From an uncultured Psychroserpens sp. (GTDB taxonomy: Bacteria; Bacteroidota; Bacteroidia; Flavobacteriales; Flavobacteriaceae), in contig CANKZZ010000002.1 in assembly GCA_947488655.1 (NCBI GenBank), positions 558,001-622,000 of the forward strand: a stretch of 64,000 nucleotides of DNA. The letters are read 5' to 3'. This document shows positions 3,250-45,287 of the stretch, piece after piece. Positions within the stretch are counted from its first letter, which is position 1. Every line of letters starts with the position of its first letter. The notes under the pieces are model-generated. The model was not told the origin of the DNA. It saw only the letters and a program-made list of their open reading frames with translations, and ran no database searches. Made by a program: the position numbers and the translations under genes.

Positions 3250-3282
3250 TTGTTATGTATGTTTTTTAATTAAATATTGTTA

Positions 3283-3309: not shown

Positions 3310-3310
3310 A

Positions 3311-3327: not shown

Positions 3328-3400
3328 CAGTGTTTAACTGACAAAGTTGCAGAGGTATCCCGTTTCCGAAGAAAAAGATAATTTACGTAAGTATGAGGCA

Positions 3401-3430
3401 AAAAAAAATGCCAACTAGATAGTTGGCATT
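3401..3430 (-). terminator. Terminator of the miaB-secG operon
   Basis: Ten-base-pair perfect stem (3407-3416 with 3421-3430, 4-base loop). Read on the minus strand it is followed by a run of eight T, directly after secG. Confidence 0.85.
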
Positions 3431-3452
3431 CATATATGTTATAAATAGAATA

Positions 3453-3809: not shown

Positions 3810-3813
3810 TATT

Positions 3814-4785
3814 TTATGTATTATTTTCTTGTAATTCTTTTACTGCTTTAATTTGGTCTGCAAAGAAACCACTTTTTTCTGGATATTTCAAACTTAATAT
3901 TTTATAAGATTGAATTGCCTTTGCATAGTTGTTTTGCTCTAGGTAAATTCTTGCTAGAGTCTCTGTCATTAAACCATCGTGTGCAACTTTATCACTAGTA
4001 TCTATATTGATTTTTTTTAACTCTTTGGTTGGGACAATTTTAGGGTTATTTTCTAAAAATTTGTCTATTAAATCAAATTTTTTGTTGATTGAGGTAGATT
4101 TTTCTTCTTGTGTATTATCGCTACTCTCAATTGTTTTTTCTTCGGAAACATTAGCATCTACCTCATTTTGGTCTCGTTGAATGGGCTTAAAGCTTGTTAT
4201 TTTTAACCACTCTGTAAAGGAGTGCGTTTCTTCTTTAGCAAATTCTAGTGGTTTACCTATTTGAAGAATTTCTTCTGGTTTTTTCTCAATTTGCTTTGCG
4301 TCGATATCGATAATAACTTGCTCTGGAGTGGTTTTTGGTAACGCTAAAAAATGAGCAACATCATCTGTATTTATTTTTTGTTCAAATAGATTTGGATCTA
4401 AAACACCTTCGGTATTTTTAATATGTTGTTTTAGTGCATCGTCTATGGTAACACTTTTGTTAACCGATATGTCGTCAATCTCATTAACTGTTATATCTTT
4501 TAAATGCTCTGAGTTTTGTTTAATTACCTGAGAGATTTCATTTTGATTGAAAACATCTGAAGTAATAAAATCAAACAAAATACTACGATCTGTTGTGTAA
4601 GCAGCAGTGGTTTTTAATTCCTGGTTATATTTAAAACTATCTGTGTTTTTTAAACCTTTAAGATGTAATGCTCTTGCCGATTGAAAATAAGGATATTTTA
4701 CACTTAACGTATGCAGTTCTTTTGTTTGCTCATTAGTAATGTGCTGAGGGTTTTGCAGTATATATGTAAAATCTAATTTATTCAT
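3814..4785 (-). CDS. TPR-containing protein, function unknown
   Basis: A 323-residue cytoplasmic-looking protein without signal peptide. The N-terminal part (NKLDFTYILQNP..) and a KYPYFQSARALHLKGLKN segment resemble a half-TPR. The C-terminus (about 271-318, TLARIYLEQNNYAKAIQSYKILSLKYPE) is one clear tetratricopeptide repeat followed by a capping helix. The centre is acidic and low in complexity. It starts one base after lptE ends and precedes secG by 4 bp, so it is tightly coupled to two envelope-biogenesis genes. A scaffolding role in envelope assembly is inference only. Confidence 0.8.
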   Translation of the reverse strand: MNKLDFTYILQNPQHITNEQTKELHTLSVKYPYFQSARALHLKGLKNTDSFKYNQELKTTAAYTTDRSILFDFITSDVFNQNEISQVIKQNSEHLKDITVNEIDDISVNKSVTIDDALKQHIKNTEGVLDPNLFEQKINTDDVAHFLALPKTTPEQVIIDIDAKQIEKKPEEILQIGKPLEFAKEETHSFTEWLKITSFKPIQRDQNEVDANVSEEKTIESSDNTQEEKSTSINKKFDLIDKFLENNPKIVPTKELKKINIDTSDKVAHDGLMTETLARIYLEQNNYAKAIQSYKILSLKYPEKSGFFADQIKAVKELQENNT

Positions 4786-30308: not shown

Positions 30309-30386
<78 letters not shown>

Positions 30387-30404
30387 GCGAAAGCCAATGA
30401 AATC

Positions 30405-30436
30405 AACGGATTGTGTTCTCGCAATCCGTTTTTTTA
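30405..30436 (+). terminator. Element-borne tRNA terminator
   Basis: Nine-base stem (30405-30413 with 30422-30430) followed by a run of T, just after attL. It replaces the native terminator, which was displaced to 45289-45321. Confidence 0.75.
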
Positions 30437-30465
30437 TGTCATCATTTTCCTTATTTTTACGTTCA

Positions 30466-30486
30466 GTACACGATAGAGTACACGAT
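30466..30486. repeat. Paired GTACACGAT repeats (left), probable integrase arm sites
   Basis: GTACACGAT at 30466-30474 and 30478-30486, 12-bp period, same orientation. The same pair with the same period occurs at 45171-45191 near the other end. They precede the integrase start codon at 30493. Confidence 0.7.
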
Positions 30487-30492
30487 TACCCG

Positions 30493-31785
30493 ATGAAATT
30501 AACCTACTCAGAACCTAAAATATACACTGGTGGTGTGGACGTCACCCAATGGTCTAAGCTCAATAGAGCGGAGCAAAAAATCGCACTATCCAAATCTTGG
30601 TATGTTTATTACTCATATCGACATCCTCAAACCAATAAGTTAGTACGTCAAAAGAATATTAAGGGAGGAGCGAATACTTTTAATACAAGAAAAGAGCGTC
30701 TAATAATTCTCAAACAGCTTAAAAAAGCATTGATGTTCGTCTTGGATAGGGGCTATAATCCTTATGATAAAAGTCTGGATTTAAAATCTGAAATTAAAAA
30801 CATATTGGAATCGGGACAAGACTTTACTTTCGGTACTAATATAAAGCCGAAAAATAGTCCAAAAGTTGAGGGTGTTGATTTAGAGGTCAAGACCACTATT
30901 AAAGAAGCTTTCGAAAAGGCAATGCTCTTAAAAAAGCAAACGCTAAAGTCAAATTCATATTCACGTTATAAAAGTCGTATTAATCAATTTAGGAAATGGC
31001 TTAACAATATTGGAATTAAAGAGTCTCAGGATATCTCAATTATTACAAAGAAAACAGTTATTGATTTTCTAAACGGTGTACTTATTAAAACGAGTCCACG
31101 TAATAGAAATAATTCCAGAGCAGATATTACGTCCCTATTTCAAGTAATGTATGACAACGATATTATTGAGGCGAATTTTGTAAAACAAATCAATGTGTTA
31201 AAGTCAAATCCAGAGCGTAATAAGACCTACAAGCCTGATAAATTAGATGAGATCTTGTCTTACCTAAAGGAACATGACAAAACACTACTGTTATTTATTG
31301 AATTCATATCCTACGGTTTGTTACGACCAATAGAAATTTGTCGTCTTACAGTTGGAGATATTGATATTAATGATGCAAAAATGTACATAAAGGCAAAGAA
31401 TAAGCCTATTAAAATTAAACTTATCCCAGATATTTTAATTAAGGAACTTCCAGATTTGAGTGATAAGAAAGACTCTTTGAGTTTATTCACTCCAGAGGGT
31501 TTTGCAAACGTGTGGAGTATTTCCGACGATAACAAAAGAGATTATTTTACCAAACGGTTTAAGAAGGTTAAGGACAAATTTGAACTCGGAAAGGATTATG
31601 GATTATATAGTTTTAGACATACCTATGTGACCAAATTATATAGGTCATTAAGAGAAGGTAAGACACCTTTTGAAGCAAAGAGTACCTTAATGCAAATTAC
31701 GGGGCACAGTACAATGGATGCATTGGATAAATATCTTAGAGATATTGACGCGGAGCTTCCAGAAGATTTCTCACAGTATTTTTAA
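30493..31785 (+). CDS. int: Tyrosine recombinase / integrase
   Basis: Site-specific recombinase that would integrate and excise the element at tRNA-Met. An N-terminal SAM-like core-binding region (about 110-215) precedes the catalytic domain with the box-I arginine in GLLRPIEICRL, YSFRHTYVTKLY (box-II Arg-His; the usual first His is Tyr), GHSTMDALDKYL with His and the nucleophilic Tyr. I start at MKLTYSEPKIYTGG (30493); an ATG at 30397 would force translation through the terminator and arm repeats. The gene runs away from attL into the element. Confidence 0.93.
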   Translation: MKLTYSEPKIYTGGVDVTQWSKLNRAEQKIALSKSWYVYYSYRHPQTNKLVRQKNIKGGANTFNTRKERLIILKQLKKALMFVLDRGYNPYDKSLDLKSEIKNILESGQDFTFGTNIKPKNSPKVEGVDLEVKTTIKEAFEKAMLLKKQTLKSNSYSRYKSRINQFRKWLNNIGIKESQDISIITKKTVIDFLNGVLIKTSPRNRNNSRADITSLFQVMYDNDIIEANFVKQINVLKSNPERNKTYKPDKLDEILSYLKEHDKTLLLFIEFISYGLLRPIEICRLTVGDIDINDAKMYIKAKNKPIKIKLIPDILIKELPDLSDKKDSLSLFTPEGFANVWSISDDNKRDYFTKRFKKVKDKFELGKDYGLYSFRHTYVTKLYRSLREGKTPFEAKSTLMQITGHSTMDALDKYLRDIDAELPEDFSQYF

Positions 31786-31794
31786 TTAGATTTT

Positions 31795-32724
31795 ATGAAT
31801 TATTTTGGAATTATACAAATGTACGAGATTGATGAAGTGATTAAAAAAGATCAACTCGAAAATTATTTAGTCCATAAAGGATATTATGAAAAATATAATA
31901 CCATTAGTATCTCAGATTTTTCAGATCACATTGAGAAGAGTATAAAGCCAAATAAAGACCTTTTAGATGCTTTCTACAATTATATCATTACAAAATATCA
32001 AGTTGTAATTGACCGAAACATTCATTCCTTTTTTTATGATTTTGAAGAATTAGTTTATGGATTAGACGATAAGGATTCAAAAAGAATTGCACTTCAAAAA
32101 TTTAATGAAATTTATCGCGTCATCAACATAAAAGGATTGAATTTTAGTAATAATTATAAGTCTGAAAATGGAATTAATATCACTCAAAGTAAGGGCAGAA
32201 TGTTTATGCTTTTTGGGATTAGGGAAGCAATGAAAAGTTCAATAGGATTACAGGAAAATATAGTATCATTTTTAATTGGCTTCGACGAATACTTCACAAG
32301 CCCAGAATTTACAGATGAAGAAGTATTTAAAGATTTGATAAGATTTGAAAGTAATCTTAAAATATTGGTACAATTAAACGAGCAATATAAGTTTGAACCA
32401 GACTATTACTTTACAAATTTTAAAAAGTACTCAGATCTCTTTAGAAAATATAAGCACATTTTTAAATCGGTTAAAATTGTGCAGTTTGTGTACGAATTAA
32501 TTGAAGTAAACTCATCAAATTTATCATCCTATAATGACAGCCTTTATCAAGTGCTAAAAGAATATGATTTGGTTAAAGGGACTAAAGAAAATTATATTAA
32601 ATTCTTAAAGACTGAATTTGATTCAAAGAAAAAGGATATCAAAATATATGCGCCTGATTCTAATCTTGAACACGACAAAAGAGTAAAAAAAATAAGAGAG
32701 AAATTATCACATTTGACCTCTTAA
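31795..32724 (+). CDS. Hypothetical island protein (309 aa)
   Basis: Follows the integrase by 9 bp on the same strand. The chain is strongly helical, rich in Lys, Glu, Tyr and Asp, has no signal peptide or membrane segment, and ends with a basic KKIREKLSHLTS tail. Aromatic pairs (YYF, FFYDFEE) recur. An in-frame Met at residue 9 (MYEIDEV) is an alternative start. Position suggests a partner of the integrase such as an excision or regulatory protein, but I recognise no family. Confidence 0.65.
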   Translation: MNYFGIIQMYEIDEVIKKDQLENYLVHKGYYEKYNTISISDFSDHIEKSIKPNKDLLDAFYNYIITKYQVVIDRNIHSFFYDFEELVYGLDDKDSKRIALQKFNEIYRVINIKGLNFSNNYKSENGINITQSKGRMFMLFGIREAMKSSIGLQENIVSFLIGFDEYFTSPEFTDEEVFKDLIRFESNLKILVQLNEQYKFEPDYYFTNFKKYSDLFRKYKHIFKSVKIVQFVYELIEVNSSNLSSYNDSLYQVLKEYDLVKGTKENYIKFLKTEFDSKKKDIKIYAPDSNLEHDKRVKKIREKLSHLTS

Positions 32725-32741
32725 TTATCTAAAAAAAACCT

Positions 32742-32798
32742 TCCCGCATAAATTTCACAATTTCCGCAGATATTTAAGTATTTCCGCAGGATTCCGCA
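32742..32798. repeat. Phased TTCCGCA repeats (iteron-like)
   Basis: TTCCGCA (the first copy TCCCGCA) starts at 32742, 32762, 32782 and 32792: spacings of 20, 20 and 10 bp, i.e. whole helical turns on one face. The cluster lies in the gap upstream of the replication-module genes. Confidence 0.6.
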
Positions 32799-32865
32799 TG
32801 TTCATTATTCTCTGATAAGTAGGGTGTTGTATTAATTTTATAACGTAACCAAATACTTATAAAAC

Positions 32866-33075
32866 ATGAACATAAAAATTAAAAAGAAGTTAAAAGAAAT
32901 TAAGTTAAACGAAGATTTTAGACAATCAATTCAAGATTGTTTAATTGATGTTAGTCTTATAGAATGGATTCTCTTTCCAATCATTATAAAAATGGAAATT
33001 GCCACTGTCTATTTTTTCATCAAATTAAGGTTCCGATGGATTCCAAATATGTTTAATCAACTAAAGTTTAATTAA
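32866..33075 (+). CDS. Small hypothetical protein (69 aa)
   Basis: Starts with a basic helix (NIKIKKKLKEIKLNEDF) and has one hydrophobic stretch (about 30-52, WILFPIIIKMEIATVYFFI) that may be a membrane helix. The stop is one base before the start of the next short gene, which supports translation as part of the operon. No family recognised. Confidence 0.5.
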   Translation: MNIKIKKKLKEIKLNEDFRQSIQDCLIDVSLIEWILFPIIIKMEIATVYFFIKLRFRWIPNMFNQLKFN

Positions 33076-33076
33076 G

Positions 33077-33220
33077 ATGAAAAAGAATAAAGCAAGATCA
33101 GTTACTATTCGCTTTACGGAAAATGATTTTATAAATATTGAGTGTGCTGCTAAGGAAGAAGGTATGTCCATTTCTGAATATATACGTGAACAATCTGTGC
33201 CTAAATATATATTGATATGA
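33077..33220 (+). CDS. Small ribbon-helix-helix-like protein (47 aa)
   Basis: The frame encodes 47 residues: basic start MKKNKARSVTIRFTE with a beta-strand pattern, then a helix N-D-F-I-N-I-E-C-A-A-K-E-E and G-M-S-I-S-E-Y-I-R-E-Q, the arrangement of the ribbon-helix-helix/MobC-like DNA-binding fold. It begins 1 bp after the previous gene and its stop overlaps the ATG of the ATPase gene (ATGATGA), indicating coupled translation. It may repress the operon or bind the nearby repeats. Confidence 0.65.
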   Translation: MKKNKARSVTIRFTENDFINIECAAKEEGMSISEYIREQSVPKYILI

Positions 33221-34257
33221 TGAATGATACTACAGAAAAAATAAAGTCATTATCTGAAGCAATCAAAGGCGATGAAGCAAAACTAATTCACGGGACTTCA
33301 AATTCTGGTTGTCTTATTGTAAAGCCTGCAAATGCATGGATAGAAGAAGCAAAGTTAAGACCAATACCGAAGATGTTGTTTGGGGAGTTTTGGTTTGAAG
33401 GAGAGGTTTCAGTGCTATTTGCAGATACCAATGTCGGTAAATCAATATTAGCAGTCCAAATAGGAGATAGTATTAGTAAGGGCCAGCACATTGAAGGATT
33501 TAAATTAGAAGTTCCTCCAAAGAAAGTAGCTTATTTAGATTTTGAATTATCAGATAAACAGTTTGAGAAACGGTATTCAGATAATTACACAAACCACTAT
33601 CATTTTCATGATAATTTCTTGAGAGCTGAAATTGATCCTGAAGCTGAGTTACCTAAGGAGTTTGAAAGTGTTGAGGAACATTTAAATCATTCTTTTTCAA
33701 GTGTTATTGAAGACAGTGGGGCTGAAGTGCTAATAATCGATAATATTACGTTTCTAAAAAGCGATAACGAAAGGGCTAAGGACGCATTATTAATAATGAA
33801 GCATCTCAAACAGCTAAACAGAGCTTATGGAATATCCATTCTTGTTTTGGCTCATACACCAAAGCGTAATTCAGCAAATCCATTAACCAAGAATGATTTA
33901 GCAGGAAGTAAAATGCTCATGAATTTCTGTGATAGCGCTTTTGCAATAGGGGAAAGTGCTTCAGAACCAGATATTCGGTATTTGAAACAAATTAAGCAAC
34001 GAAATACGGAGAAAATTTATAATGATAATAATGTTGTTATGACACGTATTGCACAACCATTGAATTTCTTAAAATTTGAATTCATTGGATTTGGAAATGA
34101 AACTGAACATTTAAGGAAAATTGAGATGAATGACATTGAAGACAGAGATGTCAGGATACATGAGCTTAAAGAAAAAGGACTTCCGAATACAGAAATAGCA
34201 AAGGAGTTAGGTATAAGTGAGGGAACGGTTAGAAACAGGTTGAAGAAAATAGCGTAG
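33217..34257 (+). CDS. RepA-like RecA-superfamily ATPase with HTH
   Basis: Contains a RecA/AAA_25-type domain: Walker A ADTNVGKS (69-76), Walker B VLIIDN (171-176) and a polar segment LVLAHTPKRN matching motif 3 of RepA/DnaB-like helicases of small mobile elements. The last 25 residues form a HTH (GLPNTEIAKELGISEGTVRNRL), unusual for plain replication ATPases. Its start overlaps the RHH-like gene. With the primase-like gene downstream it probably forms the replication module of the element; autonomous replication is inference. Confidence 0.82.
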   Translation: MMNDTTEKIKSLSEAIKGDEAKLIHGTSNSGCLIVKPANAWIEEAKLRPIPKMLFGEFWFEGEVSVLFADTNVGKSILAVQIGDSISKGQHIEGFKLEVPPKKVAYLDFELSDKQFEKRYSDNYTNHYHFHDNFLRAEIDPEAELPKEFESVEEHLNHSFSSVIEDSGAEVLIIDNITFLKSDNERAKDALLIMKHLKQLNRAYGISILVLAHTPKRNSANPLTKNDLAGSKMLMNFCDSAFAIGESASEPDIRYLKQIKQRNTEKIYNDNNVVMTRIAQPLNFLKFEFIGFGNETEHLRKIEMNDIEDRDVRIHELKEKGLPNTEIAKELGISEGTVRNRLKKIA

Positions 34258-34264
34258 TAATAAA

Positions 34265-34441
34265 ATGAATGCAGAGACAGTATATACAGTGTTTAAAGCC
34301 CTTCCTCAAGAGGAAAGGTCAAAGCTGTATACCATGTTGAAGCAAGACTATGACATTGAATTGCCAAAGATTAAGAAGAGAGAAATTATTCAGTTTTCCG
34401 ATGCTGATGCCCTTAAATACATATATAATAATCTGTTTTAA
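34265..34441 (+). CDS. Small hypothetical protein (58 aa)
   Basis: A 58-residue frame starting 7 bp after the ATPase gene: helical, charged (KALPQEERSKLYTMLKQDYD), with a short C-terminal DADALKYIYNNLF. No family recognised; size and position suit an accessory regulator of the replication module. Confidence 0.6.
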   Translation: MNAETVYTVFKALPQEERSKLYTMLKQDYDIELPKIKKREIIQFSDADALKYIYNNLF

Positions 34442-34448
34442 ATAATTG

Positions 34449-34519
34449 ATTCGTAATTCGTAACTGTCGTAAACCTCGTAACAGTTACGAGAGTTACGAT
34501 TACTACGAGGATTACGAAT
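34449..34519. repeat. Compound dyad of CGTAA motifs (candidate origin or operator)
   Basis: Four CGTAA motifs (34452, 34459, 34468, 34477) are followed by three inverted TTACG copies (34485, 34494, 34512). Nested perfect inverted repeats: ATTCGTAAT (34449-34457) with ATTACGAAT (34511-34519); CGTAACTG (34459-34466) with CAGTTACG (34482-34489); CTCGTAAC (34475-34482) with GTTACGAG (34484-34491). It fills the gap between the ATPase operon and the primase-like gene. Confidence 0.6.
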
Positions 34520-34529
34520 ATAAAATAAA

Positions 34530-35477
34530 ATGAATAGTTTTAAATATAGTTTAGACCGCACCAGTAAAAAATTTTTTTGTCCCAAATGTTCAAAGAAAAC
34601 CTTTGTAAGGTATTTTGATTCTGAAACGAGTAATTACTTAAATGACACTATTGGTAGGTGTGATAGAGAAAGTAAATGTGGCTATCATTTGACACCAAAA
34701 GGTAATAAGCCATTAGTTAAACTATCAGATTTGAATATACACGAGCGATTACCAAGCTTTCATAATGATAATCTAATCGGGTTATTTGGCAAAAACTATT
34801 CAAATAATTTATTTATTCAGTACTTAAAAACAAAATTCGTTCCTGTTGATATCGAAGATGTCATAAAACGGTATTTTATTGGGTCGTCAAATCACTGGAA
34901 TGGTGCAACCATATTTTGGCAAGTTGATGAGGAAATGAGAATTCGAGCAGGAAAAGTTATGCTTTACAATCCCAGTTCTGGAAAACGTGTAAAACACCCA
35001 TACCCACATATTAACTGGATGCATAAGGTCTTACATTCAGATAATTACGAGATATTGAATACAAATATTATCAAGTGTCATACAGGTGTCTTACGAAAAG
35101 ACCAAAATGTATTACATAAAGATAACCCATTTGTATTACAACAATGCTTGTTTGGTTTGCATAATCTACATAACGAAATTTATAAGACAATTGCTCTTGT
35201 TGAATCTGAAAAAACAGCAATTATGATGAGCATTTATTTGCCCTGTTATTTATGGATGGCTACTGGGTCGAAATCTAATTTTAAATCAAGTGTATTACAA
35301 CCATTAAAAGGTCGAAAAATCATAGCCTTCCCCGATAAGACTGAGTATAAAGTCTGGAATGCAAAATCTTCGATATTAAGAAAAGAGGGATTTAATATTG
35401 TTTGCAGTGAAATATTAGAGAAAATTAAACTTGAAGATGGTGATGACTTAGTTGATCTTTTACTTACAAATCATTAA
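34530..35477 (+). CDS. Primase-like protein with zinc finger and TOPRIM-like region
   Basis: N-terminal zinc-binding residues Cys17/Cys20 (FFCPKC) and Cys44/Cys50 (CDRESKC) form a CHC2-like finger. The centre is poorly conserved. The C-terminal third resembles a TOPRIM or DUF6371 domain: IALVESEKTAIM, WMATGSKSNF, KGRKIIAFPDKTEY and EDGDDLVDLLL in place of the DxD region. Such proteins accompany RepA-like ATPases in Bacteroidetes islands. It is the last rightward gene before the defence operons. Confidence is moderate because the catalytic residues are degenerate. Confidence 0.75.
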   Translation: MNSFKYSLDRTSKKFFCPKCSKKTFVRYFDSETSNYLNDTIGRCDRESKCGYHLTPKGNKPLVKLSDLNIHERLPSFHNDNLIGLFGKNYSNNLFIQYLKTKFVPVDIEDVIKRYFIGSSNHWNGATIFWQVDEEMRIRAGKVMLYNPSSGKRVKHPYPHINWMHKVLHSDNYEILNTNIIKCHTGVLRKDQNVLHKDNPFVLQQCLFGLHNLHNEIYKTIALVESEKTAIMMSIYLPCYLWMATGSKSNFKSSVLQPLKGRKIIAFPDKTEYKVWNAKSSILRKEGFNIVCSEILEKIKLEDGDDLVDLLLTNH

Positions 35478-35850
35478 CTTAATTTGTATTAACTACTTAA
35501 TAAAAATGTTTGCTGATAAAAGATAAAGGCTTTCAAATAATGAATGATTTTTATAAATAATTAATCTTTTCTCCATTGCTTAGAAAAATCATCACTTTCA
35601 GTGCCTAATGGAAATAATATATGGTACCATAGACAGTTAAAAGTATATCTTAAATATCTATACCAATATGGTTTCTTTTTTTTCATTTATCTTAAATGTT
35701 TTGAACTTGATTGTCTATACCCAGCATCCCGATGGGTATTAGATATATATGTATCCTATTTCTATTCATTCTTTTCTTTCCAAAATTGGATTGAAAGTCC
35801 TTTGAAAACCCAGGGACGCGGATTGTTATGCGATTGAACTTGCGTTGACT
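35478..35850. other. 373-bp intergenic region between convergent operons
   Basis: A/T-rich and without a believable gene. The open frame at 35601-35837 has low-complexity aromatic content and no relatives that I know. A 7-bp stem ATACCCA/TGGGTAT (35717-35723 with 35733-35739) is the only structure I noticed; no T-run follows it. Confidence 0.5.
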
Positions 35851-38451
35851 TTAGCTTACTATGTTTTCTAAGCTTTTTTCAAATTCAGGTTTTTTTATTA
35901 TTTCATTATAGAAAGGCATTCCCCAAATGGTATAGTTTCTACCTTTCCATAATTGCTCCAAAAAATGTTCTTCTCTTAACTGCATTAAGAATTTCTCCTT
36001 CCATTCGTCCTTTTTTAATAAGTGTTCTCCTTTAGGCTCAATAAATATTTGGTAGTGCAAACCTTCTTCGGGTTGGTGGTTAACCATAAACAGAACAAAG
36101 TCCGGTTCCGTAGGTCTACCATCATCAAAGTTGTAAATCCTAAAATGCCTTTCATTACGTACTAAGTAAATTTCCTCGAATTTTGCCTTAAGTTTCTCGT
36201 AAGCTTTATCTATGAATTTGATTAAAAGCTTTTCTTCTGATGTACCAAAACAATCTTCAAATACATACCAATCTCTATTACCTAAATCAAGGTAGTAATT
36301 GGTTTCTGTTGGATTAATCATTGATTTACCGAACTCTTTATCTGTACTATCACTCAGGGCAAAATTTAAGACCTTATCTGTGATTTTATCTTTTACCAAA
36401 AAAGGCTTGAACTCTTTACTTCCCTTAAATTCAATCTTATCAGAAGTAATAACCGTGGCTATATCTGCTAATACTTTAATGGCTGCATCCAGTTTTTCTC
36501 TTGATGTAAGATTTATAATTTGGTCTGGTAGCCCCGAAACATCTAATTTTACTTTACCTAAATAATCCTTAGAATCAATAAACTCTGAAATTGATTTAAG
36601 ATTAGGTAGATGTACTCTAAGATTAGAGAACTTATAAAAATCAAGCCTATTGATTGCCTTACGAATAATATGTTCTCCAAAATCAGCTAATTTATATTCC
36701 TTTTCTTTTTTATCTACCGCAGCTGTGGAGGCTTTACCAAAAGCAATACTTGACTTGGTGTAACCTGTTTTTAGTGAAACTTTGTGAGTTTGTTCAATGA
36801 GTGTAGATTTAAGACTAAATACATCCTCGCGATTGTACTTCTCTTGCTTATTTAGAAATATGAAACCTGCTTTGTAAAATGAAGTTTCTTTGAAATCAGA
36901 TTTTAGCCTCATTGGTCTTTCTATAGACTGTTTTGCTTTAATACCAATTTCTTCTAATGCTGTGTTTAACTCTTGAATGTAACGTGGATTGTAGGCACTA
37001 TGGTAATACAGTTCTTCACAAACCCTCAATTCATTTGTTACATCATTATCAAACTTTCGGCTAAAAAATTGTTGCTCTTCTGAAATTTGAAATGGACAAT
37101 ATCTTGCACCTCTTCCAATAAGCTGTGCTTCGGCCATTGTTGTTTTACCAGGTTTACCTTGTTTGGCATCTCTTGTGTCATAAAGTCTTACAATATCAAA
37201 TAGGTTTAATACATCCCAACCTTCGTTTAGTTTATCAACAGCAAATACAGCTCTGTATTCGTTTTCTTCATCTTCTAATGAATTGACCGCTAATTGCTTT
37301 TCTTCACTTTCATTTTTACTATTTACAGAAATGAGTTTTTCTTCTGAGAAATCTTCTTTAAGCTCTGTAATTAGGTTTTCAAGACTAATGTTATTATCTT
37401 TTAAATATTGAAACACTTTTGCAATGGCTTCATCAGGATTAGAATTTTTAATTTTTTCTAAATCAGAAACCCTTAGGTTTTTGATGCCCTCTGCAAATTC
37501 GTCAAAGAAGTTTTGACTATCCCTAATGGTTTTGGACTTAAAGAGAATTACAGGCTTGATAAGCTTTTTGTACTTCTCAAATACCTTACGCCTGTATTGA
37601 CTTAATAAAACTCCCTGAATGGCTCTATCGAATTGAGAAAGGTCTGCTTGCAGCACCTTGACTTCTTTAGAGTAGCCATCAATTCGGAATTGCTTTAGCG
37701 GATAATCAAAAACGAGCTTGTCACTATATTTTTCCTCAATTTGTGAGTTTGATAAATCAGCTGTTGCAGTGAACTCTAACAGTAGATTTTCTTTATTGGC
37801 ATTAAAAATACGGTTAACTGTACCTTCCCAACTTAGTATATCTTCAACCTCATCTTTTTTAAGCTCGTTTTTCTTTTTGGTTTCTGCGTTAATATGGTGG
37901 GCTTCATCTGAAATTAGGACGATTTTAGTTTCTTCAAAATCATCATACGTAAGGCTGTTTTCTTTAGGTGTGTTTAGCCTTGAATGTAATCCCTGAATAG
38001 TTGAGAATACAATATTTATATCTTCTTGGTTTGCCGCTTGAAAATTATCTACTTCTTTAATTTTAATTTGTTTATCACCAATTGAAATGCTATCTGCAAA
38101 TAAGTATTTAGATGATGTAGTATTGAAGAAGTTATCTCTTGTTTTTTCAATAATGTTAGTACTGTTTACAAAGAACAAGAAGTTACGATACCCTTGCTCA
38201 TACAAGTAAATGATAAGACCCGCCATAACAAGCGTTTTACCACTACCAGTTGCCATATGGAACAGTAATTGAGAAGGTGTAACTCTGTTGTTATAAAATT
38301 CAAAATAGAATAGAAAACGAGAAAAAGCTTCTTTTTGATAAGGTCTTAAATCAAAAGTAGAATTAAGATTTTCTGGTATATATAAAGGTACATTTGGGCG
38401 TGGAATGCCCATTTCAAAACCAACTGATATTTTTTGTTCAAGTGTTTGCAT
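35851..38451 (-). CDS. res: Type III restriction endonuclease subunit Res
   Basis: Superfamily-2 helicase/nuclease subunit of a type III restriction-modification complex; it translocates along or senses DNA and cleaves between two unmethylated head-to-head sites. Walker A MATGSGKT (67-73), DEAH box (182-185), and the motif-VI region QLIGRGARYCPF are present. A C-terminal PD-(D/E)xK nuclease follows: Pro-Asp at 783-784, Glu805-Pro-Lys807. Length 866 residues. It is the last gene of the operon, 7 bp downstream of the small nuclease-like gene. Confidence 0.93.
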   Translation of the reverse strand: MQTLEQKISVGFEMGIPRPNVPLYIPENLNSTFDLRPYQKEAFSRFLFYFEFYNNRVTPSQLLFHMATGSGKTLVMAGLIIYLYEQGYRNFLFFVNSTNIIEKTRDNFFNTTSSKYLFADSISIGDKQIKIKEVDNFQAANQEDINIVFSTIQGLHSRLNTPKENSLTYDDFEETKIVLISDEAHHINAETKKKNELKKDEVEDILSWEGTVNRIFNANKENLLLEFTATADLSNSQIEEKYSDKLVFDYPLKQFRIDGYSKEVKVLQADLSQFDRAIQGVLLSQYRRKVFEKYKKLIKPVILFKSKTIRDSQNFFDEFAEGIKNLRVSDLEKIKNSNPDEAIAKVFQYLKDNNISLENLITELKEDFSEEKLISVNSKNESEEKQLAVNSLEDEENEYRAVFAVDKLNEGWDVLNLFDIVRLYDTRDAKQGKPGKTTMAEAQLIGRGARYCPFQISEEQQFFSRKFDNDVTNELRVCEELYYHSAYNPRYIQELNTALEEIGIKAKQSIERPMRLKSDFKETSFYKAGFIFLNKQEKYNREDVFSLKSTLIEQTHKVSLKTGYTKSSIAFGKASTAAVDKKEKEYKLADFGEHIIRKAINRLDFYKFSNLRVHLPNLKSISEFIDSKDYLGKVKLDVSGLPDQIINLTSREKLDAAIKVLADIATVITSDKIEFKGSKEFKPFLVKDKITDKVLNFALSDSTDKEFGKSMINPTETNYYLDLGNRDWYVFEDCFGTSEEKLLIKFIDKAYEKLKAKFEEIYLVRNERHFRIYNFDDGRPTEPDFVLFMVNHQPEEGLHYQIFIEPKGEHLLKKDEWKEKFLMQLREEHFLEQLWKGRNYTIWGMPFYNEIIKKPEFEKSLENIVS

Positions 38452-38458
38452 CCTTTAT

Positions 38459-39220
38459 CTATTTAATGAAATCTTGAAAATCTACAATACCATCAAGCTC
38501 TATTGGAGGAGTATTATTAAAATTAACAGAAAACAACTTTAACTTAGACGCATCATCAAAAAATGGAGATTTATGTCTGACGTTGTAAAGTATCTTAAAT
38601 GTTGTACCAGCGCTATTACAAAGTTTTGATAATAACCTAAAATTGTTGTAGTCATCTCTAAATGGAGCCCATCTATCTAATGAATAGTAAGACCTCTTCA
38701 ACTCATATATGGTTGTCGGGTTACCATTAGCACCTACCTTGTATAAATCAATATCAGATACTTTTAAACTACTACCAAGACTACCTCTTTGCCATTTATG
38801 ATAAGCACTGGATGTTCTGTCATTTAAGTATTTACCAGTAGTACTATTAGAAATAGGTAAGTTGTAACTTGAAAAAACCTGCATTAATTCCATCATATTT
38901 TTCAATTCAAAATTCGTACCGTCAGTAGAAAGGAGTACTTCGGTAACCTCTGAAATGTCAGTACGGAATTTAATTAAAATATAAGGCACTCCTGTAATTG
39001 CTGATAAATGTTTATAAAAATCAACCCCTTCTTGGTCTGCATTACTTAGGTTTGAATTATATTCGCTCTCGTTTTTACCAAAAACATAAACTAATAATTT
39101 TGGGTCGCAATTTGCATCTCCATATATTAATTGCCATTCATTACCAGTTACAAACTTTAGGTGATTAACACTATTTTTTATTAGTTCATCATAGACTGCA
39201 TTTCCTTTATAGTAGCTCAT
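38459..39220 (-). CDS. PD-(D/E)xK-like protein between mod and res
   Basis: A 253-residue protein without membrane segments. Residues 156-175 (SDIDLY ... TIYELK) hold Asp158, Glu173 and Lys175, i.e. D-x14-E-x-K, the core of the PD-(D/E)xK nuclease fold, with a following helix (about 183-202). The fold assignment is inference from this motif and neighbouring beta strands. It lies inside the type III operon, 5 bp after mod and 7 bp before res, so it is probably made with them. I know no standard component of type III systems of this kind. Confidence 0.75.
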   Translation of the reverse strand: MSYYKGNAVYDELIKNSVNHLKFVTGNEWQLIYGDANCDPKLLVYVFGKNESEYNSNLSNADQEGVDFYKHLSAITGVPYILIKFRTDISEVTEVLLSTDGTNFELKNMMELMQVFSSYNLPISNSTTGKYLNDRTSSAYHKWQRGSLGSSLKVSDIDLYKVGANGNPTTIYELKRSYYSLDRWAPFRDDYNNFRLLSKLCNSAGTTFKILYNVRHKSPFFDDASKLKLFSVNFNNTPPIELDGIVDFQDFIK

Positions 39221-39225
39221 TTCCT

Positions 39226-41142
39226 TTATTTCTTATAAAAATTATGGTTATTAATAATTGTCTCATCTGTAATGGAGTAAGTTTGGTCATCTATCTCTGA
39301 ATAATTTACATATAGCTGATTCTTATCCAAAATTGCGATTAAGGCCTTTATCATTTCATCCTGTTTTAATGCAGAAAAGGCATCTAACTCATTATTCAAA
39401 ATATCTCTATTAAGACTAAATTGTATGTAGTTGTTACTATATAAGCTCTTATATATCTCAATTAAAGCTACTGAGTCAGTGGCTTTTTGCATGATTTCAA
39501 CGATTGAGGAATTAAGAGATAAAAGTTCTGCATATATAAATTCACCTCCTCCTTTCCAATCAACAATGGATGAAATGCCCGAGGGGTCTCCTTTTAGACA
39601 TTTTTGTAATCTAGAAACTGCATCATTTTTACCATAGAATAATTGTTCTATTCCAATAAATTGACGACCAAGCTTTAGGGCTACAGCCGCAGTAGTACCG
39701 CTACCAAGGAAAAAGTCTAAAACTATATCACCAGGTTCAGTACTAAATTCAATTACTCTTTTAAGTAGCTTCTCAGGTTTTTTACCTTTTTTAAGAATAA
39801 CACCACCTTCCTTTGCTATCCCTTGAAATGGTATATCATCCCAAAAATTAGTTAATGGTTCAGCGGTAACTAATTCTCCATCAATTTCACGTAACTTATT
39901 TTTATAAAATAAAATTCTCTGACCTTTCTGTAAATAAATGTCCAAATGATTTTCTCTGGTCTGTCTGAATATTTTTGATGGTTCTTTTTTAGAGGCATCA
40001 ATCAATTCTCTTGTTTCTTTACCAACACCATCATAATTTGGCTCTGCAAACCTTATAACTTGATTTGGAAATTTAGCAATGAGTTTGTCTGCATCTTTAA
40101 TATTGAATTGCTTTAAAGCTTCTTTTACTGAGATAAACCTCCATTTTTCAAAATCTTCTCCATAGTTGATCACAAACTTATTATAAGCCTTATCATAATC
40201 TCTTTTAGTATATGATTTTTTATATATCCATTGACTTTTAACTTTAGCATAACCAATTAGGTAATCCGTTACAGATATTGGAGAAGGATTAATTGATTTA
40301 TGACCAGTAGCAGCACTTCTCTTTATGGAAGTTAAGTTGAGGAAGTTTTCTTTACCAAATATTTCATCACATAAAATCATTAAGTATGGAAGCTCATTAT
40401 CATCAATGTTCATCCAAATTGAACCATTATTAGAAAGTAGCTTTTTTGCAACCTCTAATCGGTTTTTCATAAAAGTTAACCAAGTAGAGTGATTAAAGCT
40501 GTCATTATATTTAAAGCTATCATTACCTGTATTATAAGGAGGGTCAATATATATGAGCTTTACTTTCTTGTTATACTTAGGCAAAATGCTATAAAGACCT
40601 AATAGGTTATTTCCTTTAAGTATTAGATTATCGTCTGACTTAATTTCAGTAACTTTTTGCTCACCATTTTTTGTAAAACGTTTCCAGTTTGATAAAACTT
40701 TAGGATCTAATAGTCTATCTATTTCATCTGGTGCTAAGGTTGTATTCCAAAAAACTTCTTTTCTCTTATTGTCTTCTTTTGTTTGACCTCCTTCTAAAAC
40801 ACAATCTTTATATGGCCAAGCCAAAACGACATCTTTATTCTCTTTAATAAATTCATCATCTTCCATTAGACCAATACGATTCTTAAAAGATGTGTAGCTA
40901 TCAGGCAAAAAGGCTTTGTTACTTACAAATTTTTGGAATTTGATTTTATCAAAAACCATAATTCCTTCTACATCTTGAAAGAAATGCTTTTTGATACTTT
41001 CGTATGAAAGAAGCATTTTAATTAATATAACGTCAAGTTGTAAAGCTAACTCAATGATTTTGTTTTTGAGTAGCTTACCATCTACTACAAGTCTTTCATC
41101 TTGTTGGAGTAGCCTTTTTAAATCTTCTAATAGGTTCTGCAT
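39226..41142 (-). CDS. mod: Type III DNA methyltransferase subunit Mod
   Basis: N6-adenine methyltransferase that recognises the target site for both modification and restriction. The order of motifs is beta-class, as expected: DPPYNTGN (from residue 200, motif IV) comes first, and the SAM-binding FLGSGTTAAVALKLGRQFIGIE (motif I) follows near residue 450. The N-terminal 160 residues and the region between the motifs supply target recognition, so the site cannot be predicted. 638 residues. The HTH regulator lies 30 bp upstream. Confidence 0.94.
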   Translation of the reverse strand: MQNLLEDLKRLLQQDERLVVDGKLLKNKIIELALQLDVILIKMLLSYESIKKHFFQDVEGIMVFDKIKFQKFVSNKAFLPDSYTSFKNRIGLMEDDEFIKENKDVVLAWPYKDCVLEGGQTKEDNKRKEVFWNTTLAPDEIDRLLDPKVLSNWKRFTKNGEQKVTEIKSDDNLILKGNNLLGLYSILPKYNKKVKLIYIDPPYNTGNDSFKYNDSFNHSTWLTFMKNRLEVAKKLLSNNGSIWMNIDDNELPYLMILCDEIFGKENFLNLTSIKRSAATGHKSINPSPISVTDYLIGYAKVKSQWIYKKSYTKRDYDKAYNKFVINYGEDFEKWRFISVKEALKQFNIKDADKLIAKFPNQVIRFAEPNYDGVGKETRELIDASKKEPSKIFRQTRENHLDIYLQKGQRILFYKNKLREIDGELVTAEPLTNFWDDIPFQGIAKEGGVILKKGKKPEKLLKRVIEFSTEPGDIVLDFFLGSGTTAAVALKLGRQFIGIEQLFYGKNDAVSRLQKCLKGDPSGISSIVDWKGGGEFIYAELLSLNSSIVEIMQKATDSVALIEIYKSLYSNNYIQFSLNRDILNNELDAFSALKQDEMIKALIAILDKNQLYVNYSEIDDQTYSITDETIINNHNFYKK

Positions 41143-41172
41143 ATATTTAATTTCTTCGATTGGTTTCTCGTG

Positions 41173-41370
41173 CTATTTTTTTTTATTAGGTACTAAAAGT
41201 TCTCTTATGTCAACGTTTAAAATTTCAGCAATTCTATAAAGGTCTTCTATGCTTGGTTGTCGTCTGTTCTTAGCATAAGAATTTACCATATTATAGCTCT
41301 TCTCCAACTTCTTTGCTAACCAGATTTGCTTGATTCCTTTTTCTTCTAAAACCTCTTTTATTCGGTTCAT
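41173..41370 (-). CDS. XRE-family transcriptional regulator
   Basis: A 65-residue helix-turn-helix protein from Met at 41370 (MNRIKEVLEEKG; nine extra residues if the upstream frame is used). IKQIWLAKKLEKSYNMVNSYAKNRRQPS is a Cro/C1-type HTH and IEDLYRIAEILNVDIRELL its usual last helix. It precedes mod and resembles C-proteins that time methyltransferase and nuclease expression. A palindrome CTCATT-a-AATGAG at 41420-41432, 50 bp upstream of the start, is a good operator candidate. Confidence 0.88.
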   Translation of the reverse strand: MNRIKEVLEEKGIKQIWLAKKLEKSYNMVNSYAKNRRQPSIEDLYRIAEILNVDIRELLVPNKKK

Positions 41371-41397
41371 TTTTATGAAAATTAATTCAGTCAGCAA

Positions 41398-41748
41398 AAT
41401 AGAGATTATATTTCAGTATCTCATTAAATGAGTATTAAAATAATCATTCAATTTTGGTGGCAAAGGAGAATTAAAGCTCTATTGCCAATGCGGCTCGAAG
41501 CGACATATATGCTTGAACGAGATATGGTTTGTCATTTTTTCAACGGCGTATGGAGGCCGTTTATATGGCTCGTAGCGTGCGAAATAGCTATTGTTTTCCG
41601 GTTAGGTACAAGCGAGATTTTTAAATTTTATTATTCATTTTTTATCGGAAATCGTCAAATTTAAAAATTTGGCGACTTTCCAAATATGCCTTAACCTTCT
41701 AAAGGCAACAGCCGAGCTATGAGCTATATACATCTTAAGTATGTAGTT
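41398..41748. other. 351-bp region between the HTH gene and the HNH gene
   Basis: Higher in GC than its surroundings between 41480 and 41600, with no convincing gene. It contains the palindrome 41420-41432, two imperfect copies of GGCTCG(A/T)AGCG (41492-41502 and 41567-41577), a GGCGTATGGAGGCC stretch and an imperfect hairpin around 41646-41680 (GGAAATCGTCAAATT paired with AATTTGGCGACTTTCC). It may be a structured RNA, a recombination scar or the leader of the restriction operon. Confidence 0.4.
41420..41432. promoter_or_regulatory. Candidate operator for the XRE regulator
   Basis: Perfect 6+1+6 palindrome CTCATT-a-AATGAG between the HTH gene start and the structured gap. Confidence 0.45.
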
Positions 41749-42588
41749 CTATATAAATTCTCCATTGCAAAAATCTATGTTTTGATATAAACAATCATAA
41801 AAAGCTGTTTGCCAAGAGTTTTTGTTTACCACATATCTACTACTATAGCAATCTTTAAGATGTGCTTTTAAATGGTTGCTTCCTGCACTTTCAAATAATA
41901 TCGTTATTTGTTGTTTTATGTTTTCAAATTCTTCAATTGCGTGAATAGAGTACAACTCGTTAAGTAAATAGGAAGCAAAATGATTTCTTAGTCGCTCTCT
42001 TAATAAAGTAGGCCAATCATCAGGAGGCAATACGTAATATTCAAATGTAATTGGATTAAGAGTAATTATTTTAGCTTTTAGCCAATCATAATCTTCAATA
42101 TCATCAAAATATGGATGTAAAGTTTCTTCTTCACTATTTGTTGGAGAGTCAACCAACTTGTCTTTATTACAGTCACTACAGGATGGTACTAAATTATTTG
42201 GTGTTATTGATAGTATTGGATATTTTGATTTAGGTAAATAATGATCTAAAGTTCTAACTTGTTTAACATTACAAAATGGGCATTTTCCATTTGGAGCAGA
42301 GATAAATATTGAGTTGTAATATTTCCTTCCCTTATTATTCTTATTTACCAGTCTATCTGTATAGATTCCTTTTAAAACTGTTGCGTTAATTGTATCACTA
42401 ATATTTACATTTTGGTGTATTTGGTATAATGTATTCGTTAGTTTTTTATTATTAAAGTCTGATTCTGCTGTTGTGAATTGATCTACTGAGTCAATTATTT
42501 CTTGTTTAAGAACTGTATTTTGTAAATTATCAATACAATCAAGAATAACTTCTGATACTAAAAATGATGGTTTTGCTATTTTTTTCAT
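41749..42588 (-). CDS. ptuB: HNH endonuclease (Septu PtuB-like)
   Basis: 279 residues. The HNH motif is plain: Cys103/Cys106 (KCPFC), LDH at 114-116 with His116, NN at 131-132, and Cys137/Cys140 (SCSDCNKDK) holding a structural zinc. Its start overlaps the stop of the upstream ATPase gene by 4 bp (ATGA), so the two proteins are made together. An AAA ATPase followed by an HNH nuclease is the layout of the Septu anti-phage system, in which the nuclease acts under ATPase control. Assignment rests on motifs and order, not on a database match. Confidence 0.82.
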   Translation of the reverse strand: MKKIAKPSFLVSEVILDCIDNLQNTVLKQEIIDSVDQFTTAESDFNNKKLTNTLYQIHQNVNISDTINATVLKGIYTDRLVNKNNKGRKYYNSIFISAPNGKCPFCNVKQVRTLDHYLPKSKYPILSITPNNLVPSCSDCNKDKLVDSPTNSEEETLHPYFDDIEDYDWLKAKIITLNPITFEYYVLPPDDWPTLLRERLRNHFASYLLNELYSIHAIEEFENIKQQITILFESAGSNHLKAHLKDCYSSRYVVNKNSWQTAFYDCLYQNIDFCNGEFI

Positions 42589-44093
42589 TTATTATGCATT
42601 AATGTTCTTAAAATAGCTTTTCCCTCTTGACCAATTTTATTATTTAAAATACCAACAGCCTCTTCAAAATCATTTGAGTTGTTTACTATTTCCTTTAAAA
42701 TATTATGAAAACCAGAATCTGTCACTTCTAAACCAAATATTTCTTGTGTCAGTAGGCCAACATTTTCTCCAAAAGATTCAATTTCTAATCGTTCTGCAAT
42801 CGCATCTGCTCCGTGCCTTCTTAACTTCCATACAGAACTTTTTGGGACTTCTTGTAATACAACAGGTGAATGAGTACCAATTATAGCTACTGCATTTCTT
42901 TGTATAAGTATATCCGATAATGCTCTGATAAATGCAGAAAGTAATGGAGGATGTAAATACCCTTCTGGCTCATCTAAAAGGACAAGACTTCTTTCCTCGA
43001 TAGTCTCAACAATTTGAGTAATAGTTAATAATACTATTTTATGTCCAGAACTTAATTTATTAAAAATTAAAGAAGCTTTTTCGATTAATTGTAAATTGTC
43101 TTCAATTTCTAAAATATGAGATACCTCAGACTCATTAAATACAGGATCTGTTTCAAGGACTTTTACTGCATTTTCCCACCTATTTCTCTTTCCTTGTAAT
43201 TTACATTTTTCAATACTTTTTACAAATTCATTTTTTAGTATTGTTGGGCTTTTTGGTCTATCATTATTCTTTTCAGCTCTTTTTAATCCAATATATGAAT
43301 AATTTAAATGTTTAGTTTTATCTCTTTTTTCAACAATAGGATTTGTTTCATCAAATGCACTAAATGAAACTGAGATAAGATTAGCAAAAGGATTTTTTGA
43401 TTCTTCAAGAGAATTTGTGAAAAAACCATTTTTTCCATTTCTTCGATTTCCACCAAGTAGCGAAGTAATCATACTATTGAAAAGATGAGTTTTACCAACA
43501 CCATTACGTCCTATAATTACATTAATATTTGATGGAGGATTTGATTTAGGAATAACGTTAAAATCCAAAACCATATCGCATACTAAACTTTTAGGATGTT
43601 TAGGTAAATGGAACTTGAAATTGTAAGGTGTTAATTCAGAATTACCAGTAGCCAATCTTCTAAATTGACCTTCTACTGAAGTTGTACTAACATCTCTCAA
43701 TAGAGAAATTTTCGTTACATTTTCTTTTAATGAACGTTTGTAAATATTAGTTTTCAATGCTAAATCGTTCAGTGCATTTAAAACCTCGTCTCTAAAATCT
43801 ACGCTAATTAAACTTAATCTTTCATAATAACTAACATCTTGCCCCAGAGAGAAAAAGGTTTCCTCTAATACTTCAAAAGAATTTGGCAAATTAGGGGTTC
43901 TCATTTGCGAGCCCATATTAAATTTTCCGATTTTTACAGATCCCAAATTATGTCTGAGTCCTTCATTATCATAATAATAAAGTGTATACAAAGTGGAGTA
44001 GGTAAACCAATCATCCCAGTTTGAGTGAAACAGAAAAACAACATTGATTTTTTGTATTTCAGAATTAGTATCGTTGTTGAGATAAAAGTTCAT
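42585..44093 (-). CDS. ptuA: AAA/ABC-type ATPase (Septu PtuA-like)
   Basis: 502 residues. Walker A GRNGVGKT (195-202), a late ABC-like signature LSSGHKIV and Walker B LVLLDEPEGYLHPP are followed by the switch-His region IIGTHSPVVLQEVP, the arrangement of OLD/AAA_15/AAA_21 ATPases. The N-terminal 190 residues hold no known motif. It is first of a two-gene operon with the HNH gene, matching PtuA-PtuB. The 244 bp upstream contains nested inverted repeats GCGTCAA/TTGACGC and TAACG/CGTTA around 44130-44185 that may regulate it. Confidence 0.8.
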   Translation of the reverse strand: MNFYLNNDTNSEIQKINVVFLFHSNWDDWFTYSTLYTLYYYDNEGLRHNLGSVKIGKFNMGSQMRTPNLPNSFEVLEETFFSLGQDVSYYERLSLISVDFRDEVLNALNDLALKTNIYKRSLKENVTKISLLRDVSTTSVEGQFRRLATGNSELTPYNFKFHLPKHPKSLVCDMVLDFNVIPKSNPPSNINVIIGRNGVGKTHLFNSMITSLLGGNRRNGKNGFFTNSLEESKNPFANLISVSFSAFDETNPIVEKRDKTKHLNYSYIGLKRAEKNNDRPKSPTILKNEFVKSIEKCKLQGKRNRWENAVKVLETDPVFNESEVSHILEIEDNLQLIEKASLIFNKLSSGHKIVLLTITQIVETIEERSLVLLDEPEGYLHPPLLSAFIRALSDILIQRNAVAIIGTHSPVVLQEVPKSSVWKLRRHGADAIAERLEIESFGENVGLLTQEIFGLEVTDSGFHNILKEIVNNSNDFEEAVGILNNKIGQEGKAILRTLMHNK

Positions 44094-44337
44094 CTTATAT
44101 TTTCAGTAATTGCAGACCACGAGTTTGTGAAAGCGTCAATAACGGGAAAAAGCGTTAGTTTTTTTTCGTTGACGCAACTAAGTTAATTAAAAGTACTTAA
44201 TTTCCAATAGGGAATTCTGTAGTTATTTCCTTTACACATTGTTATGCTTTGAAATTGTTTCCAGAGAAAATTCTGAAGGAATTTTGTATATAAGCATTTG
44301 CCAAAACAAATAATTATATAAGGTGTTCCTATATGTA

Positions 44338-44931
44338 TTATAAATCATCAAGACTATTTTTGTTCGATTCCTTATTTCTTAATTCTAAATATTTGTCTGT
44401 AAACTCATATTTTATATTGGCATTTTGAGAAAAGATGTCATACTCATTTTCTTGAAAACCTTTATCAAATGTGATTACTTTATTCTCAATTACCCATTCG
44501 TACCTTCGTACTGGTTCCTCCCAATCATATTTAACTAAAGGTTCTCCGTATTTGCTCTTATATAATGATAGTAAATTTTCCACGTCATTTTTATAACTTT
44601 TATAGTACATAATTGTAGCTCCCATTCCAGCTCCATCAGGTTTAGTTAGTTCACCAATATTTATATTAATTCGTCTTAATTCGTTGTATTTGAAATCTCC
44701 ATCAAATATTATGCGAATTTTGTTTCCATCAATGTTATAATTATATCTGTAATAGTTTCGACGCGAGTGTTTATAGATTTTTTCATTCGCAAGTAGTGTA
44801 TCAATAGTTTTTTCGTATATATCCTTTGATATTCCTAATTTGAAATCAAGAAAATCAATTTCTTTGTCTGCTGAATTTGAACAACTGAATAAAACAATGA
44901 TTGCAATTAAATTAATTAGTTTAATTTTCAT
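44338..44931 (-). CDS. Hypothetical lipoprotein (197 aa)
   Basis: The signal peptide ends in VLFSC (Cys17), so it should be a lipoprotein. The mature chain is charged and mixed alpha/beta, with a KYGEPLVKYDWEEPVRRYEW segment and a polar Asn/Ser tail. It is the last gene of the island before attR, oriented toward the Septu pair. Nothing in the sequence links it to defence; it may be a passenger gene. Confidence 0.7.
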   Translation of the reverse strand: MKIKLINLIAIIVLFSCSNSADKEIDFLDFKLGISKDIYEKTIDTLLANEKIYKHSRRNYYRYNYNIDGNKIRIIFDGDFKYNELRRININIGELTKPDGAGMGATIMYYKSYKNDVENLLSLYKSKYGEPLVKYDWEEPVRRYEWVIENKVITFDKGFQENEYDIFSQNANIKYEFTDKYLELRNKESNKNSLDDL

Positions 44932-45170
44932 TTGATGTGTTTTTTAATGTGTTGCAACAAATATAAATATATACTGGTTACTAAATATCTATTTTAAGAT
45001 CCATAAAATGAATTTATTAAATTCATATCTTCAATTTACAAGAAATTGAAAATATATGAGAAATAATATGCGTAGCTCTACGGAATTTTATATGATCAAA
45101 TCACTTTGAAACAATATACCGTTAACTGCTGTTAAAATATTTTTTATATTTGAATCAATGTATAATTAGA

Positions 45171-45191
45171 GTACACGATTGCGTACACGAT
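45171..45191. repeat. Paired GTACACGAT repeats (right)
   Basis: Copies at 45171-45179 and 45183-45191 with the same 12-bp period and orientation as the left pair, 49 bp inside attR. Confidence 0.7.
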
Positions 45192-45240
45192 TTCAATCGT
45201 GGGAGGTATTTTAAGTGCCAAATTCGAGGTTTGATTCAAA

Positions 45241-45287
45241 CTCATAACCCGAAGGTCACTGGTTCGAGTCCAGTTCCCGCTACTAAG
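45241..45287. repeat. attR core, partial tRNA-Met copy
   Basis: Exact copy of 30340-30386. It lacks the 5' half of the tRNA and is preceded by TTTGATTCAAA, so it is a displaced 3' fragment and not a functional tRNA. Confidence 0.95.

Follow-up and report, generated by a model that had tools for sequence, protein, structure and literature searches.

A putative PD-(D/E)xK nuclease gene in a variably filled position between mod and res of a type III restriction-modification operon

The window analysed here, a stretch of 64,000 nucleotides from an uncultured Psychroserpens sp. (GenBank assembly GCA_947488655.1, contig CANKZZ010000002.1, positions 558,001 to 622,000), contains an integrative element of ~15 kb (30340–45287) delimited by 47-bp direct repeats at 30340–30386 and 45241–45287, the first copy being the 3' part of tRNA-Met. 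Inside the element lie genes for a tyrosine integrase (30397–31785), an AAA_25 ATPase (33217–34257) and a DUF6371 protein (34530–35477), and its cargo comprises two defence systems: a full minus-strand type III operon, in the order mod-X-res, and a minus-strand pair encoding a PtuB-like HNH nuclease and a PtuA-like ATPase (41749–44093; PADLOC PDC-M01B, 2e-98, and PDC-M01A, 2e-197), a candidate Septu-like system. A small Cro/C1-type HTH gene (41173–41397, minus strand; ORF and domain match) directly upstream of mod is a candidate controller. Both of the two same-genus genomes searched have the left flank of the element at 72–75% identity with one repeat copy alongside; the right flank was unmatched in these two genomes.

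Type III systems are commonly regarded as two-gene enzymes. The usual layout has mod adjoining res, which the enzyme itself does not require; in the window X (38459–39220, minus strand), an ORF of 253 aa with an ATG start, intervenes between mod (39226–41142, minus strand; 638 aa) and res (35851–38451, minus strand; 866 aa), with 5 bp separating the X start from the mod stop (39226) and 7 bp the X stop from the res ATG (38451). An earlier note on this DNA had described such a gene with gaps of 5–7 bp, as we find it. Codon usage and frame length both mark X as a real gene: its frame scores +0.144 bits/codon under host usage, each of the other five frames scores below zero, and at its base composition 253 codons free of stops would arise by chance with a probability of ~3e-10. 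Mod matches PF12564 (1.3e-23), PF01555 (2.4e-42) and the PADLOC MTase_III model PDLC03635 (2e-179), and Res matches PF04851 (7.8e-33) and the PADLOC REase_III model PDLC03651 (5e-137); judged by these matches both are genuine type III subunits, with predicted methylase domains, SF2 helicase and C-terminal PD-ExK nuclease all present. The nuclease of Res, which the earlier note had also reported, is borne out by P783-D784...E805-P-K807, invariant across six aligned relatives. In Mod and Res families, gene order and catalytic motifs, the window's operon is the same as EcoP15I/EcoP1I-type systems, from which it differs in having a third gene between mod and res; the available portion of PMC3874151 gives the EcoP1 mod-res gap as 2 bp.

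X had been taken for a nuclease from D158-x14-E173-x-K175. The residues are present, and by themselves are weak evidence for that identity: the loose form D-x(9,20)-[DE]-x-K occurs in 73% of shuffled X sequences and in 35 of the 41 window ORFs of at least 150 aa, the exact form D-x14-ExK in 5.8% of shuffled copies and 11/41 of these ORFs, and the motif with hydrophobic neighbours in 2.8% and 2/41, respectively.

Better support comes from the sole clear homologue of X, which keeps all three residues in a methylase-helicase setting. This is an unannotated 274-aa ORF on plasmid pMESIL02 of Allomeiothermus silvanus (L101:7860–8684), which surfaced with a match at E 0.01 in a plasmid search after the E limit had been raised to 10. 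Compared directly, the two proteins match at E 6e-10 with 25% identity over 187 columns; D-I-D, E-L-K and W-x-P-x-x-D-D-x-x-N, as well as a downstream region, are in register, and D158, E173 and K175 are all kept in this one homologue compared. The corresponding motif block of X (D156-I-D158...E173-L-K175...W184-x-P186...D189-D190...N193) covers residues 156–193 (38642–38755, minus strand). The A. silvanus ORF follows an Eco57I/MmeI-like methylase gene and a small gene and directly precedes a PLD/SNF2 helicase gene, with a D12 methylase gene also in the operon. Lying thus between methylase and helicase, it places the gene at a like position in a second, different methylase-helicase operon, not of type III. 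Near this operon, a reading frame annotated only as a zinc ribbon protein (L101:639–2249) matches Cas12f/Cas12u1 models (4e-94).

X and the A. silvanus ORF are the two known members of their family. Queried against Pfam, NCBIfam, PADLOC, PHROGs and PDB sequences, X had no match that rose above noise (the best PADLOC match, to C3a186, had E 0.0076 over 56 residues), a PDB search with the A5 alignment gave no match, tblastn in phages and plasmids yielded no relative at E<=0.01, and pattern scans of viral_contigs and genome_contigs found none. Among 298 other family genomes there were two matches beyond the window's own genome, both spurious, one falling within a SusC-like protein (L002) and the other opposite an acyltransferase (L003). 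The phylum sample, which may overlap with the family sample, had X in 0/394 other genomes; weak matches of the A2 profile there (L104, L105) are spurious judging from their ORFs.

Folded alone, X gave a model with pLDDT 35.5, and with the A5 alignment (four slot-type relatives) one with pLDDT 45.6 and pTM 0.45. In the latter, low-confidence model, residues 138–231 form a helix, two strands, a helix and two strands surrounding D158, E173 and K175 (strands 159–162, 168–175 and 207–215 and helix 188–203, at pLDDT 45.6). The PD-(D/E)xK core is alpha-beta-beta-beta-alpha-beta, and the beta-beta-alpha-beta order about the motif is, at the low confidence of the model, what such a core would give. No entry of the PDB or a viral library matched the model at E<=0.001 in Foldseek; among the named viral entries further down the list, many are PD-(D/E)xK nucleases. 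The best VIA Z was 6.3, for a match over residues 31–102, and most rows span residues 27–102, away from the motif region. The two lists include Rai1/DXO, LHK exonuclease, Cas4, Hjc and many viral PD-(D/E)xK proteins, and also acetyl-CoA carboxylase and pyrophosphatase, and since none of their entries reached E<=0.001 or Z>=8 we do not take them as proof. Structure prediction, among the checks proposed in the earlier note, gives at low confidence a nuclease-like local order of elements and no significant structural match. A PD-(D/E)xK fold for X is likely on this model, and a PD-(D/E)xK nuclease, with predicted activity, is its most likely identity, because the motif is kept in the homologue and lies in a modelled beta-beta-alpha-beta arrangement. 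A copy of the Res nuclease domain was rejected as an origin of X (A5 versus A1 profile, probability 0.1%).

The mod-res gap was surveyed in Res relatives gathered from 11 of 298 other family genomes (E<=1e-60), 5 of 394 other class genomes (E<=1e-100) and genome_contigs, which contributed the best 80 of at least 525 confirmed loci and makes the sample a biased one. From 97 loci (L004–L100) we dropped duplicates (L013, L092, L097) and loci without mod (L015, L043, L061, L063, L087, L093), and kept 88; L010 is counted, its mod end having been confirmed in an extended stretch, and L009 is scored as filled on a 54-aa ORF only. With the window included and the genome_contigs part being those best 80 of at least 525, the gap is empty in 62/88 operons and filled in 26/88, that is, in 25/87 operons other than the window's. 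The defined three-component system envisaged in the earlier note is thus not what its proposed operon survey returned: fillers recur, but they are varied, and X is not fixed among them. At one locus of the survey, a gill-symbiont operon (L031), two tandem mod genes stand ahead of res (tblastn 291–2135 and 2222–4252).

Six fillers are PD-(D/E)xK-like with support beyond the motif (window X, L006, L016, L017, L090, L095) and two on the motif alone (L051, L074), whereas 12 of the 26 filled gaps hold known or suspected toxin or defence genes. The latter comprise Abi_2 (L008) and RhuM (L010) proteins, both by Pfam; Bro-N/DinD-like proteins, by Pfam in L014 and L080 and by 76% identity to L014 in L046, the DinD label resting on similarity or sequence reading; HepT/MNT-like proteins, by Pfam in L019 and by similarity or sequence reading in L030 and L033; a 755-aa AAA_13 protein (PF13166, by Pfam) in a WOR-3 operon (L022:3551–5818), of a family that includes PrrC; NYN (L044) and kinase (L079) proteins by Pfam; and a candidate PIN and ASCH-like protein (L064), with PIN at 24.8 bits, under the cut-off of 27, and ASCH by similarity or sequence reading. 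Six fillers are without class (L005, L009, L042, L065, L069, L077), that of L069 having no Pfam match; X and ten nuclease-like or class-less slot proteins had none at the curated Pfam cut-off. Because they have no family support beyond the motif, L005/L077, L051 and L074 are not counted as supported nucleases. By phylum, 19/41 gaps are filled in Bacteroidota and 7/47 elsewhere, and supported PD-(D/E)xK fillers are found in 6/41 Bacteroidota operons and 0/47 others, again among 88 operons whose genome_contigs part is the best 80 of at least 525.

On the Res tree (94 rows), the filled or empty state requires at least 17 changes. Within the window's own clade (six operons, branch support 100), five have a nuclease-like gap gene, each different, supported in the window (L004), L016, L017 and L090 and by motif only in L074, while the gap of L083 is empty; genes are tightly spaced in the window's operon and in its sisters. 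We rejected on these grounds the idea that all slot genes encode a single fixed subunit, with the gap mostly empty or holding different genes across relatives and the state changing often on the tree. The best reading of the mod-res gap is a cargo slot with frequent turnover.

Some slot nucleases are related to one another: the proteins of L016 and L095 (4.5e-6) and those of L006 and L017a (4.9e-6). A profile built from L016, L095 and a Halobaculum protein also finds L017b (2e-5, probability 77%), with a score of 45, where the runner-up among the window and slot proteins compared scores 21.7. The 145-aa slot protein of L090 is a type II REase relative, from its match to PADLOC REase_II (2e-17), and showed no profile link to X. 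As for X itself, its motif aligns with that of L017b, which scores 27.0 against a maximum of 22.6 in 150 shuffled versions. We rejected this similarity as proof of common descent: in a scan of 454 proteins, L017b ranked second, below a spurious match to an outer-membrane efflux protein (by Pfam), and profile A2 of X against profile A3 of the sister slot nucleases gave a probability of 0.6%, which is not significant. With L017b second to a spurious match, descent of X in common with the other slot nucleases is only possible. Every row of the joint slot alignment keeps D158 and E173, and some rows have R or Q in place of K175, among them the L016 and L095 genes with ExR/ExQ instead of ExK.

Finding the gene alone, without mod and res, would have told against X in the earlier note's own terms. 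The outcome is mixed. The X homologue is in a different operon, still with methylase and helicase genes; the L095/L016 family, from the same slot in sister operons, also has members away from restriction operons (L106, L107, L102, H7), namely in virus-like contigs, in a Halobaculum plasmid region that has phage genes, and in a Fusobacterium phage. Likewise, a 61% relative of the L090 slot protein (L108:3663–4103) adjoins terminase-like genes in a viral contig.

Comparison of the window with its nearest relatives reveals an exchange around X. Res is 80% identical to that of L016 overall and 88% over residues 201–600, and L016 is the closest of all surveyed loci (genome_contigs part, best 80 of at least 525) for Mod 1–130, Res 41–200 and Res 201–600. 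Counting ranks from zero, however, L016 is 20th for Mod 131–262, absent for Mod 263–450, 43rd for Mod 451–550, 86th for Mod 551–638 and 60th for Res 1–40, and relative to L016/L017 identity is 8–12% over Mod 263–450 against 83–88% over Res 201–600. At the DNA level, similarity to L016 ends at 40358 in mod and returns at 38347 in res; L095 shows a like break, and so does L017, where a single 42-bp stretch within the block still matches. The block without DNA homology to the nearest relatives (38347–40358, minus strand) thus runs from about codon 262 of mod through the whole of X into res, of which it includes the first ~35 codons; in the protein comparison the break may start as early as Mod codon ~131 (40752). 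From these ranks and the DNA break, it follows that one of the two lineages underwent a joint replacement of the recognition domain, the Mod C-terminus, X and the start of Res.

One reading of this block is that the mod-res gap of Bacteroidota type III operons is a dedicated exchangeable effector slot, in which a single cassette of recognition domain and slot nuclease is exchanged, flanked by a Mod N-terminus and a Res body that stay constant, with the nuclease functionally tied to the recognition domain or to Mod/Res. The operons L005 and L077 speak for a tie between effector and recognition domain, with slot proteins (L005:4104–4706 and L077:5402–5995, no family match) 78% identical and Mod recognition domains 96/81% alike; L014 and L046 speak against it, their Bro-N genes being 76% alike and their recognition domains 11–14%. 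Hitchhiking explains the joint exchange with X having no functional tie to the recognition domain, and we consider the cassette reading rather doubtful. Were it true, type III systems would be modular, swapping target site and second effector in a single recombination, and such exchange makes a coupling of effector to DNA specificity testable.

Our preferred reading, to which we give an even chance, is that X is a divergent PD-(D/E)xK-type nuclease, an exchangeable cargo of the mod-res gap that serves as an accessory, second-line defence nuclease on the tRNA-Met element. X would be translated together with Mod and Res from the tightly packed gene row, presumably as one transcript, and would attack the DNA (RNA being less likely) of incoming phages or plasmids when restriction by Mod/Res has been evaded or blocked; otherwise it might be kept in check through methylation by Mod or through its association with Mod/Res. 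We propose this back-up role mainly because sister gaps take known types of suicide and defence genes and because guard genes have precedents. Guards within restriction operons are established for PrrC (EcoprrI) and proposed for HEPN and RhuM proteins in the accessible parts of PMC3710099 and PMC12707154. Like X, the PrrC, HEPN, RhuM and Doc guards of those parts are embedded in restriction operons, and several such classes sit in the type III gaps surveyed here; unlike X, which looks like a PD-(D/E)xK protein in a type III operon, PrrC-type guards as treated there are mainly RNases or protein modifiers, and the worked example is type I. The PrrC hallmark, an ABC-ATPase with a HEPN anticodon nuclease, was not found in X with Pfam, NCBIfam and PADLOC, and by analogy X may at most work like a PrrC guard and is not a PrrC member.

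Other known systems share single features with the window. In some type III systems mod is preceded on its 5' side by an additional SF2 helicase/ATPase gene without PD-ExK, nearby in >500 genomes according to the portion of PMC8259958 available; a third gene is attached to mod/res there too, but outside the pair, whereas that of the window is nuclease-like, separates mod from res and is not conserved. Dnd loci, in the part of PMC10853773 available, surround a phosphorothioate modification core with varied endonucleases, for which a role in restriction or as suicide effectors has been proposed, and so resemble the window's slot in their exchangeable nucleases, placed downstream or at the borders instead of between mod and res. 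The modA recognition domain has moved as a block in Neisseria/Haemophilus, as in the window, and the accessible part of PMC3311624 describes no accessory gene exchanged along with it. In the open-licence PMC full text searched, no nuclease gene was reported from the mod-res gap. If back-up nucleases and toxins use this gap as a cargo site, a major restriction type carries undescribed second-line effectors, and inspecting the gene between mod and res would be a simple search rule for new anti-phage effectors.

Among the alternatives to an accessory nuclease, the one that survives best, though we hold it unlikely, is a site-matched endonuclease that would read the site of Mod and be blocked by Mod methylation, giving two cutters (Res and X) per Mod and obliging X to travel with the recognition domain. 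The exchange of both in one block between the window and L016/L017 would fit, as would the parallel likeness of slot gene and recognition domain in L005/L077 and the resemblance of the L090 slot gene to a type II REase. A gap gene between the recognition domain and res would nevertheless hitchhike in any such exchange, the L005/L077 gene is not among the supported nucleases, and the L014/L046 pair indicates that slot genes can move separately.

Improbable, and ranked next, is a role for X as a control subunit or structural part of Mod/Res, with a nuclease-derived fold that no longer cuts. A second cutter is not needed with the nuclease motif of Res intact, and ExR/ExQ in the L016/L095 slot genes would suit such a loss; X and its homologue, however, retain D, E and K, and the two-gene operon is the commonest (62/88, genome_contigs part best 80 of at least 525), which argues that a type III enzyme in general needs no slot subunit.

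Lower again we place a selfish intergenic, homing-like endonuclease for which the operon would be a landing site. Members of slot families are indeed seen away from restriction operons, in virus-like contigs (L106/L107), the Halobaculum plasmid region and the Fusobacterium phage, and beside a terminase-like gene in L108. Sites without insert are frequent, the gap being empty in 62/88 operons (genome_contigs part as above, the best 80 of at least 525), yet other gaps hold unrelated genes. Against it, the X homologue also sits in a methylase-helicase operon, the gap accepts unrelated toxin genes too, and the tight packing of X with mod and res suits an operon member. Least probable of all is an unrelated fold with an accidental motif, for although the motif is frequent by chance and no profile library names X, the homologue keeps the triad and W-x-P-x-x-D-D-x-x-N in identical register and the low-confidence model places the expected beta-beta-alpha-beta around the motif.
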